Below, in pieces: positions 7,442-24,464 of a stretch of DNA of 59,808 nt (within the stretch, counting starts at the first letter, position 1; the number at the start of each line of letters is the position of its first letter). The DNA lies in the NCBI GenBank assembly GCA_002698425.1, contig NZXU01000035.1:1-59808 (forward strand), given 5' to 3'. The stretch is from Ahrensia sp. GTDB taxonomy: Bacteria; Pseudomonadota; Alphaproteobacteria; Rhizobiales; Rhizobiaceae. Position numbers and translations under genes: made by a program. The notes beneath the pieces were generated by a model. The model did not search any database, had not been told where the DNA came from, and was given only the letters and a program-made list of their open reading frames with translations.

Positions 7442-8086
7442 CTATGCGAGGAAGGGATTGGTCCGCCTCTCCTCGCCGATCCGGCCGCCGGGTCCGTGCC
7501 CGCAGATAAAGCCGATATCGTCGCCGAGCGGGAAAAGCTTCTCCTTGATCGAGGCGATCAGCGTCGCGTGGTCGCCGCCCGGAAGGTCGGTCCGCCCGAT
7601 CGAGCCGCGGAAAAGCACGTCGCCGACATGGGCGAAACTGGCTTCGCGATTGTAAAAGACGACGTGGCCCGGCGCATGGCCGGGGCAGTGCAGCACCTCG
7701 AAGTCGTGGCCGGCAAACGACAGCGTCTCGCCCTCTTCCAGCCAGCGATCCGGCGTCACGTTGCGCACAGTCCCCGGCAGGCCGAACATCTTCGCCTGAT
7801 CCTCCAGCTTGTCGAGCAGCATCTTGTCGGCCTTGTGCGGGCCGATGATGTCGACGCCCAGCGCTTCCTTCAATTCCATCGCCCCGCCGGCGTGGTCGAT
7901 GTGGCCATGCGTCAGCCAGATCGCCTCGACGATGACGCCGTTTTTCTCCAGCGCCTCCTGGATCTGGTCGACATCACCGCCCGGATCGACGACGACCCCG
8001 TGTTTGGTTTCCGTATCGAACATCACCGTGCAATTCTGCTGGAACGGTGTCACGGGGATGATCAGCGCATTGAGCGTCGCCGCCAT
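7442..8086 (-). CDS. MBL-fold metallohydrolase, YcbL-like (glyoxalase II type)
   Basis: A 214-residue cytoplasmic hydrolase. The metal site is complete: T59-HGHIDH-65, then HCPGHAPGH, HVGDVLFRGS and the final HGPGG. Length and the FRGSIGRTDLPGG segment match the YcbL subgroup, which hydrolyses glutathione thioesters such as S-lactoylglutathione. This would remove the product of methylglyoxal detoxification. No glyoxalase I lies nearby. Same strand as the glycine-rich gene and ilvE but separated by a terminator. Confidence 0.85.
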   Translation of the reverse strand: MAATLNALIIPVTPFQQNCTVMFDTETKHGVVVDPGGDVDQIQEALEKNGVIVEAIWLTHGHIDHAGGAMELKEALGVDIIGPHKADKMLLDKLEDQAKMFGLPGTVRNVTPDRWLEEGETLSFAGHDFEVLHCPGHAPGHVVFYNREASFAHVGDVLFRGSIGRTDLPGGDHATLIASIKEKLFPLGDDIGFICGHGPGGRIGEERRTNPFLA

Positions 8087-22436: not shown

Positions 22437-23498
22437 ATGGCATTCGACTTCATCTTCATGCTGACGGAAGACGATCGCACGATTCCGGACGCCCGCGCAC
22501 GGCTGCAGGATGTGCTGGCCGGCGGCGCCCGCCATATCGGCTTCAAGGATGTCGGCCTGCCCTTCGAGGATCTGAAAGGGCTTGCCTCCGAAATCCGCGC
22601 CGCGGGCGGGCGCGCCTATCTGGAAGTCGTCAGCCTCGACGCAGATAGCGAGTTGCGCTCGGCCCGCGCCGCGATCGATCTTGAGGTCGACTGCTTGCTC
22701 GGCGGTACCCGCGCGGAAACGGTCGCGCCGATGTTGCGCGCCCATCCGGTGCGCTATTTTCCCTTTCCCGGCGAGATCGTCTCCCATCCGAGCATCCTGA
22801 AGGGCACCGTCGAGACGATCGCCGACAGCGCCCGCCGCCTCGCCGATCTCGAAACCGTGCACGGCCTCGATCTCCTCGCCTATCGCTTCGACGGCGACGT
22901 GCCCGAACTGATGAAGGCGGTCTGCGCGGCAACGGCAAAACCCGTCATCGTCGCCGGCTCGATCGATACGGAGGAGCGCATCGTCGCCGTGGCCGAAGCC
23001 GGCGCCGCCGGCTTCACGGTTGGCACCGCCGCCTTTCGCGGCGCGTTTCCGGCGGCAGGCGAAGGGCTGGTCGCGCAGGTGCAGGCGATCCTCGCCATGA
23101 CCGGACGCGCCCGCCAGCGCTCATCCGCGCCGCGCAAGATCGCGCTCGTCGCCCACAACAATCGCAAGACCCAACTGCTCGCCTGGGTGCGCCGCCACCG
23201 CGAAACGCTGGCCTGCCATTCCATCGTCGCGACCGGCGGGACGGGCACCATGCTCGGCAAGGAGGAGCCGTCTTTGTCGATCCGCCGCCTTCAGCGCGGC
23301 TCGCATGGCGGCGACCAGCAACTGGGCGCGCTGGTCGCGACCGGCGAGCTCGACGCCGTCATCTTCTTTGCCGACCCGCACGGGCCGGCCTCGCTCGACT
23401 TCGACCTGCTGGCGCTGATGCGCCTCGCGATCCAGCACGATATCCCCATCGCCTGCAGCCCGGCGGCGGCGGATCTCTTCGTCGCCGCCAGTCTTTGA
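22437..23498 (+). CDS. Fusion: TIM-barrel-like domain plus methylglyoxal-synthase-like domain
   Basis: 353 aa. Residues about 1-220 look like a phosphate-binding TIM barrel: VDCLLGGTRAET, LLAYRFDGD, and KPVIVAGSIDTEERI followed by AGAAGFTVGTAAF, the usual C-terminal phosphate grip. Residues about 230-353 match methylglyoxal synthase (DHAP to methylglyoxal): IALVAHNNRKTQLLAW, VATGGTGTM, GGDQQLGALV and DAVIFFADPHGP. Compared with E. coli MgsA (from memory) the base Asp71 is kept, but Asp20 is Asn and His98 is Leu, so activity is doubtful or altered. MgsA is normally a single domain of about 130-150 aa. The two domains may share a triose-phosphate ligand. No gap or frameshift is seen at the junction. 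Confidence 0.75.
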   Translation: MAFDFIFMLTEDDRTIPDARARLQDVLAGGARHIGFKDVGLPFEDLKGLASEIRAAGGRAYLEVVSLDADSELRSARAAIDLEVDCLLGGTRAETVAPMLRAHPVRYFPFPGEIVSHPSILKGTVETIADSARRLADLETVHGLDLLAYRFDGDVPELMKAVCAATAKPVIVAGSIDTEERIVAVAEAGAAGFTVGTAAFRGAFPAAGEGLVAQVQAILAMTGRARQRSSAPRKIALVAHNNRKTQLLAWVRRHRETLACHSIVATGGTGTMLGKEEPSLSIRRLQRGSHGGDQQLGALVATGELDAVIFFADPHGPASLDFDLLALMRLAIQHDIPIACSPAAADLFVAASL

Positions 23499-23508
23499 CT
23501 ATGGGAAA

Positions 23509-23715
23509 TTACCTGGTCCTGCAGGTCTTGATGCCGAACGGCATATAGGCCGGGCACCAGCCGATCACGGCGGTCGCCAGCATCACGATGCCGACGATCA
23601 GCACCACCCAGCCGAGCGCGCCTGTCACCGTGCCCATGAAATAGAGCGCCAGCAGGATGATCCCGACGATGGCGCGAATTCCGCGGTCCATACCGCCCAT
23701 ATTGGTCTTGAACAT
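23509..23715 (-). CDS. DUF2892 (YgaP transmembrane-like) protein
   Basis: 68 residues with two hydrophobic helices (about 13-32 and 36-55) and the family signature MDRGIRAIVGI near the start, CPAYMPFGIKTC near the end. The same domain forms the membrane tail of YgaP, a rhodanese; stand-alone copies are frequent near sulfur or redox genes. AGGAC precedes the ATG. Convergent with the fusion gene and directly downstream of the Crp/Fnr regulator, with a palindrome in between. Confidence 0.85.
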   Translation of the reverse strand: MFKTNMGGMDRGIRAIVGIILLALYFMGTVTGALGWVVLIVGIVMLATAVIGWCPAYMPFGIKTCRTR

Positions 23716-23804: not shown

Positions 23805-24464
23805 CTAATCCGCCCCGCCGGCAATACGCTGCAACTCGTTTCGCGCAACGATCCGCACGACGCCGCGGTCGAGCGATACGATCCCGCGCCCGGAAAGGGC
23901 CTCCAGCCGCCGCGAGACGACCTCGCGCGCCGAGCCGATCACCGAGGCGATCTCGGCATGCGTCGCCCTGACCAGCCCGTCTGCGTCCGCCTGGGCGAGA
24001 AGCCATTGCGCAAGCCTGAGTTCAACCTTCACGAAGGCGACCATTTCCAGCAGATGCGTCATCTCGCCGAGCCGGTCGCCGAAGGCCTTGAAGACGAAAC
24101 GGCGGAAATCGCCCGACTCGCGCACCAGCCTGTCGAATGTCGCCGGCGGGACGACCGCCGCGACAACGTCGCTCTCGGCGATCGCCTCGCCGCTATAGGG
24201 CTGCGACCCGAGCATGCCCAGCGTGGTCTGCACGCAGGTCTGCCCGGGATCGATGGAATAGAGCAGCAATTCGCGCCCGGTGCGGCTGTTCAGATAGACA
24301 TTGACCCGCCCCGAAATCGTCAGCACGAAGCCGAACGGTACGTCGCCGGGACGGAACAGCACCGTGCCCGCCGGGATCAGTTGCGGCTTGAGCGGCTCCA
24401 GCGCGCCGCGCGTTGCGGGGTCGAGTATGGCGGCATAGGGCGTGCCGGTTATCCAGGATGTCAC
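23805..24464 (-). CDS. Crp/Fnr-family transcription regulator
   Basis: 219 aa: N-terminal cyclic-nucleotide-binding-like barrel (about 15-120), dimer helix, C-terminal HTH (about 160-210) with IASVIGSAREVVSRRLEALS as the recognition region. It lacks the four N-terminal cysteines of oxygen-sensing Fnr; the RPGDVPFGFVLTISGRV and QTTLGMLGSQPYSGEAIAES segments resemble regulators that control DUF2892/sulfur genes. Starts at GTG with AAGG upstream. Effector unknown. Confidence 0.9.
   Translation of the reverse strand: MTSWITGTPYAAILDPATRGALEPLKPQLIPAGTVLFRPGDVPFGFVLTISGRVNVYLNSRTGRELLLYSIDPGQTCVQTTLGMLGSQPYSGEAIAESDVVAAVVPPATFDRLVRESGDFRRFVFKAFGDRLGEMTHLLEMVAFVKVELRLAQWLLAQADADGLVRATHAEIASVIGSAREVVSRRLEALSGRGIVSLDRGVVRIVARNELQRIAGGAD

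Follow-up and report, generated by a model that had tools for sequence, protein, structure and literature searches.

The gene described here lies on the forward strand at 22437..23498 of a 59,808-nt stretch of Ahrensia sp. DNA (contig NZXU01000035.1, the window hereafter) and encodes, from ATG to TGA, a 353 aa protein in which an uncharacterised TIM barrel (residues 1–228, 22437..23120) is joined to a methylglyoxal-synthase-like (MGS) domain (residues 231–351, 23127..23489). All positions given for its parts are on the same strand. The barrel was delimited on the AlphaFold2 model, and the MGS domain by Pfam, NCBIfam and alignment to Escherichia coli methylglyoxal synthase (MgsA), with which it shares 41% identity in a Foldseek alignment. 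The C-terminal half matches PF02142 (42.7 bits, cut-off 24.1; Pfam) and the MgsA model NF003559 (130.8 bits, cut-off 84; NCBIfam), and it misses the cut-off of the MGSA model TIGR00160 (106.6 versus 146.9 bits; NCBIfam). For the N-terminal half, in which no Pfam or NCBIfam family rises over its cut-off, AlphaFold2 prediction and fold comparison agree on a TIM barrel (pLDDT 96.5 for the barrel alone and 87.1 for the whole protein), as a preliminary description of this DNA had supposed. That description also proposed the fusion itself, and 22437–23498 is confirmed as one intact gene, its barrel–MGS fusion being real and conserved. Query coverage is at least 95% in 119 of the 120 homologues listed (86% in P0105), with identities of 68–93%, and such full-length homologues rule out that two separate genes were joined in error. 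Altogether 5292 proteins match the query among the 8000 candidates scored, many perhaps via one domain.

A search for the same fusion in other genomes, as the preliminary description had suggested, drew on a set in which each GTDB species is represented by one genome. It gave 268 pattern places, 264 of which encode a relative; the best 80 were kept as loci L001–L080. These 80 fall mostly into Rhodobacterales, Hyphomicrobiales (Ahrensia, Oricola, Stappia), SAR116 and other Alphaproteobacteria, and the nearest relative of the window protein (96%) comes from an Ahrensia metagenome-assembled genome. The distribution across genomes is patchy: with the centre genome set aside, the fusion occurs in 0/386 genomes of an even sample of the class and in 3/397 of an even sample of the phylum, with at most five and seven candidates, respectively, scored per genome. 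Four loci at 68–80% identity (L005, L006, L023 and L033) come from bins named Verrucomicrobia or Gemmatimonadetes, which are perhaps mis-binned alphaproteobacterial contigs. No paper on the barrel–MGS fusion or on the barrel, and none on E. coli MgsA mutants, was found in the open-access literature searched.

Alignment of the MGS domain to E. coli MgsA (1b93) places Leu320 (23394..23396) at the position of His98, Asn241 (23157..23159) at Asp20, Gly268 (23238..23240) at Thr47, Arg287 (23295..23297) at Ser65, Asp293 (23313..23315) at the catalytic base Asp71 and Asp323 (23403..23405) at Asp101. We followed these positions in 84 fused domains (the window, L001–L080 and L197–L199) and in 23 stand-alone MgsA proteins of Alphaproteobacteria, taken from 21 of the 24 class-sample genomes with such a match and from two others. 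His98 is present in 0/84 fused domains versus 23/23 stand-alone proteins, and so is Pro67; the Ser65 place holds Arg in 84/84 versus Ser in 23/23, and the Thr47 place holds Gly in 79/84 and Thr in 0/84 versus Thr in 23/23. In MgsA, Thr47 and Ser65-Gly66-Pro67 belong to the phosphate pocket. His19, Lys23, Thr45, Thr48, Gly66, Asp71 and Asp101 are kept in every fused and every stand-alone sequence, and Asp91 in 82/84 fused domains, while position 96, two before His98, is His in 67/84 of them but not in the window. A further homologue, P0089, carries Asn at the Asp71 place in alignment A1, where 42 of the 120 listed homologues stand beside the window. The altered active site and the retained base Asp that the preliminary description had read in this one protein therefore extend to all 84 fused domains. 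Its replacement of Asp20 by Asn stands for the window and fails as a general trait, since the fused domains carry Asn in 40 cases and Asp in 44 (Asp in 23/23 stand-alone proteins); the change is lineage-specific and is ruled out as a family hallmark. Three other diagnostic changes, Ser65 to Arg and the losses of Thr47 and Pro67, had been missed.

A tree built from 24 of the 84 fused rows and the 23 stand-alone rows gathers the fused domains into one clade (support 100/99). The genomes of 50 of the 80 best fusion loci were checked for an additional MGS frame about as long as MgsA (108–201 aa). Such a frame was found in ten (six Stappia, an Ahrensia relative, one Rhizobiaceae and two Ruegeria), and the other 40 have no such frame among the matches listed; the two or three MGS matches in those 40 genomes are presumably PurH, CarB and the fusion, which they fit by frame length.

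The barrel, and not the MGS domain, is the constant part of the protein family, since it also occurs alone (about 220–250 aa), with a C-terminal cupin and behind PdxA, architectures that the preliminary description had not noticed. In two cupin-fused relatives tested, the Pfam model Cupin_2 scores 40.8 and 40.5 bits. PdxA and the barrel share one ORF in two genomes (L193:8595-10406 in G561 and L230:7656-10316 in G1023), the second of these ORFs lying directly after a DUF1537 kinase gene. In a full-profile search of 387 alphaproteobacterial genomes, 30 had a barrel-type match, which amounted to the full fusion in the centre genome only. In 24 genomes the match was through MGS alone, in open frames of 131–213 aa, and the few remaining matches were weak and partial with E above 1e-4. 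On a barrel tree of 60 rows, from which the duplicates L143 and L145 were omitted, 25 stand-alone rows form one clade (100/99), and the other clade holds eight cupin-fused rows in two places, two bare barrels and 25 MGS-fused rows, the last again as a single clade (100/99). The three architecture labels need three changes on this tree.

The barrel has its own set of invariant residues. An alignment (A2) of 32 barrels, consisting of the window, five MGS-fused, five cupin-fused and 21 stand-alone sequences (L086, L091 and L109 were left out), shows Thr10, Asp13, Thr15, Lys37, Asp38, Glu63, Asp85, His117, Asp145, Arg150 and Thr194 to be invariant. Tyr149 and Ser175 come close to it. Several of these residues sit at C-terminal strand ends in the predicted model, among them Lys37 at the end of strand 2 (22545..22547) and Glu63 at the end of strand 3 (22623..22625); His117 lies in the loop after strand 5 (22785..22787), and Asp145 and Arg150 delimit a DLLAYR motif on strand 6 (22869..22886). 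In the model, the strand-end residues look like an active site. The segment from Gly174 to Thr197 (22956..23027) has weak HisA-like similarity and would form a half barrel of the phosphate-binding type. PF00977 (HisA/HisF) scores 17.6 bits on the window, under its cut-off of 23.6, and is passed by L089 (25.4 bits), one of six relatives tested, and by several other stand-alone rows; the source names of stand-alone relatives are either hypothetical protein or HisA-related ('uncharacterized protein related to proFAR isomerase'). PF03740 (PdxJ) is not among the window Pfam matches at E up to 1, a level at which weak matches may be filtered. Fold comparison places HPS, pyruvate kinase, PdxJ, ThiE, KDPG-type aldolase and RPE all within 2.4 Z. 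Pyruvate kinase co-aligned with both domains when the whole protein was compared, a result that was set aside; with the barrel alone, the match lies in the barrel.

Gene neighbourhoods were read at 69 loci with flanking DNA, which encode 45 barrels from the stand-alone clade, four bare barrels of the fused clade, and 14 cupin-fused and six MGS-fused proteins. Clade labels were set first by architecture and then checked by a quick tree of these loci and the window, which separates the 45 stand-alone barrels from the 25 others (support 100), with L231 on a long branch. The fused clade has 18 loci that lack MGS, and in 15 of these a PdxA gene lies upstream of the barrel, on its strand and no more than 200 bp away; in ten of those 15 a DUF1537 kinase gene precedes it. 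The PdxA proteins of these operons exceed the NCBIfam pdxA cut-off of 290.35 (367.7–385.4 in four, 341.9 in L115) and fall under that of D-threonate 4-phosphate dehydrogenase, while D-threonate kinase is the best NCBIfam match of the DUF1537 kinases, also under its cut-off. At least one further PdxA is encoded elsewhere in 15/15 genomes with an operon PdxA, which rules out the operon copy as the sole PdxA of the cell and therefore makes it a PdxA2-like paralogue; six other genomes without an operon copy have one PdxA (four genomes) or two (two genomes). The stand-alone clade has PdxA near 0/45 barrels. Within 3.5 kb and on the same strand, its loci show genes for a G1P-dehydrogenase-like protein (G1PDH; 13), an FGGY kinase (11), a DeoR regulator (20), a HAD protein (3) and GlpD (2), with at least one of these near 29/45. 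At 5.5–9 kb, taken as an internal control over the 49 loci without a C-terminal domain, the count was 0 for each of these families save FGGY (6). Three stand-alone barrels (L117, L121 and L135) were seen beside class II aldolase genes, with M81-like genes recognised by eye in L117 and L135, and three others (L118, L129 and L136) beside an RraA-like gene. No histidine genes were noticed among the neighbours of barrel relatives.

The MGS-fused lineage has a linkage of another kind. A pyridoxal-kinase-like gene lies upstream on the same strand in 23 of the best 80 fusion loci, 73 of which have more than 1.5 kb of upstream DNA. Its spacing to the fusion is −11 to +13 nt in 17 of them and 733 nt in one, and five overlap more, the ORF caller taking the longest start. 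The wider neighbourhood differs in many, not all, of these loci. The kinase-like gene is diverged; L025, L028, L065 and L076 are among the 23 loci that have it. In 11/11 genomes searched, the linked kinase is the only strong TIGR00687 match (106–143 bits, just under the cut-off of 144.5, the next match scoring at most 45), while 7 of 8 other genomes carry an over-cut-off pyridoxal kinase elsewhere. In SAR116-type loci, the fusion sits between purine genes (named by eye), and in the window lineage it follows L25, pth and ychF. Downstream of the fusion in the window, two genes on the reverse strand appear by eye to encode a small, DUF2892-like membrane-type protein (23509-23700) and a Crp/Fnr-like regulator (23805-24464); the scanned parts of both gave no NCBIfam match at E 1e-10. 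The preliminary description had linked the fusion to an MBL-fold hydrolase at 7442-8086 (reverse strand), a suggestion that finds no support: the nearest family is GloB, at 101.7 bits versus a cut-off of 200.8, the gene lies about 14 kb away and no link was found.

GlpD and G1P dehydrogenase yield dihydroxyacetone phosphate (DHAP), PdxA2 yields it from 4-phosphotetronates and MgsA consumes it. We infer from these gene settings a common substrate type, X-CHOH-CO-CH2-OPO3, and propose, tentatively and at somewhat less than an even chance, that the fusion is a two-domain enzyme of ketotriose- or ketotetrose-phosphate metabolism around DHAP, with an MGS-type eliminase of changed substrate. The barrel would be the core enzyme and would bind a small phosphorylated keto compound of this type, X being H in DHAP and the compound otherwise a four-carbon analogue. 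Its phosphate would be held at the strand 7–8 site, with Lys37, Glu63, His117, Asp145 and Arg150 working on it. In the PdxA operons and PdxA–barrel ORFs, the barrel comes after an oxidising step, which suggests that it acts on the product of such a step; its likeliest activity would be that of an isomerase, a lyase or a decarboxylase. The MGS-like domain would have been added once and would take a related compound. It probably still forms an enediolate, because Asp71 and Asp101 are kept, and probably eliminates phosphate from it; since His98 has been lost and the rebuilt phosphate pocket contains an Arg, the domain would differ from MgsA either in its substrate or in what becomes of the enediolate. 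The two sites may be coupled, with channelling between them, and the window protein presumably works like its relatives. The triose-phosphate setting put forward in the preliminary description thus gains from the genes beside barrel relatives and nothing from the window itself, and its interpretation is, overall, partly supported.

The protein could instead be a plain methylglyoxal synthase, producing methylglyoxal from DHAP without His98 under the control of a barrel that senses phosphate or triose phosphate. We consider this rather unlikely, although the NF003559 match, the conserved Asp71, Asp101, His19, Lys23, Thr45 and Thr48, and the 40/50 fusion genomes with no separate MgsA-sized frame among the matches listed are all in its favour. 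TIGR00160 is failed, four positions kept in every stand-alone MgsA are changed in every fused domain, and 10/50 fusion genomes have a separate MgsA-sized gene. A regulatory barrel is also at odds with the invariance of polar strand-end residues across 32 barrels and three architectures, which favours an enzyme over a mere sensor, and with the existence of barrels that lack MGS. It is quite improbable, for its part, that the MGS-like domain is catalytically dead or serves purely as an oligomerisation or allosteric module of the barrel: the loss of His98, the rebuilt phosphate loop and a barrel whose partner can be a cupin or nothing would all suit such a module, but a dead domain need not keep Asp71, Asp101, His19 and Lys23 in 84/84 sequences, and the new Arg at position 65 is itself invariant.

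A role in vitamin B6 metabolism or repair is in our judgement unlikely. Here the barrel would act on what PdxA makes, which is an amino analogue of DHAP, or else on another B6 intermediate, and the MGS-like domain would remove the phosphate. Such a role would account for the pyridoxal-kinase-like gene next to the fusion, the only strong one of its genome wherever it was searched for, as well as for the PdxA adjacency and the PdxA–barrel ORFs. Published work is compatible with it, stating that PdxA2, which acts in organic-acid catabolism, can also catalyse the PdxA reaction (PMC9997740) and that DUF1537 kinases, which serve four-carbon acid sugar catabolism, can phosphorylate 4-hydroxythreonine (PMC7954711; PMC10580937). 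In contrast, a separate PdxJ is encoded in 16/16 genomes searched with related barrels, which also rules out the barrel as a PdxJ replacement, the operon PdxA is always an extra copy, the best match of the DUF1537 kinases is D-threonate kinase (under cut-off), and the stand-alone barrels have no PdxA beside them.

Several observations weigh against placing the fusion at DHAP. The coupling to pyridoxal kinase is not explained by such a role. The six MGS-fused loci of the neighbourhood set have no adjoining PdxA or polyol genes (0/6), the neighbours L25, pth, ychF and apt of the window are uninformative on the pathway, and 11 reference partner proteins gave no match in the window at E 1e-4. Among the stand-alone loci, 16/45 have none of the G1PDH, FGGY, GlpD, DeoR and HAD genes; the G1PDH and FGGY examples score under the NCBIfam equivalog cut-offs (GlpD scores above), so that the substrates of these G1PDH- and FGGY-like genes are unsure. 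Many loci are close relatives and their counts are not independent, and the control range of 5.5–9 kb is incomplete at the 19/69 loci under 18 kb. Finally, the fold is too widespread to give the reaction a name, since other barrel families have nearby scores.

Set against known systems, the C-terminal domain is homologous over its length to MgsA (E. coli 1b93, Thermotoga maritima 1vmd; NF003559, PF02142) and shares Asp71, Asp101, His19, Lys23, Thr45, Thr48 and Gly66 with it. Unlike MgsA, the fusion carries a barrel, lacks His98, Thr47 and Pro67 and has Arg for Ser65 in 84/84, with Asn for Asp20 in the window lineage. HisA/HisF-like barrels have the TIM fold in common with the N-terminal domain, with weak sequence similarity around strands 6–8, but the invariant residue set differs and the neighbours of the relatives are C3/C4 phosphate genes. 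Acid-sugar catabolism by DUF1537 and PdxA2, reportedly described by Zhang et al. in 2016, is a further point of comparison. Barrel relatives from the clade of the window protein have their genes immediately behind those of DUF1537 and PdxA2, and in two cases barrel and PdxA form a single ORF; the window and the six MGS-fused loci of the neighbourhood set are not linked to kinase or PdxA2. We know of no barrel step of this kind in that pathway, by which D-threonate ends at DHAP. According to one study, L-threonate is converted to DHAP (PMC12540250).

The protein is more than an ordinary fusion: it combines a known domain, its active site rebuilt throughout the clade, with an uncharacterised barrel that exchanges partners. 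The listed fusion homologues are named by their sources, where at all, 'methylglyoxal synthase', a label under which many Alphaproteobacteria would be predicted to form toxic methylglyoxal from DHAP via the fusion; judged by the active-site census, this label is unsafe. The barrel family has no curated model of its own, while the operons and fusions in which it occurs point to a single small substrate class. It is possible, if doubtful, that the barrel represents a new enzyme family for an undescribed C3/C4 keto-phosphate step at the DHAP node, that gene adjacency and fusion (PdxA upstream, a cupin or the MGS-like domain downstream) have placed it in several pathways, and that the MGS-like domain is a neofunctionalised phosphate eliminase that lacks His98 and whose substrate is not DHAP. 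Once named, the barrel enzyme could account for a step in the catabolism of polyols or acid sugars.
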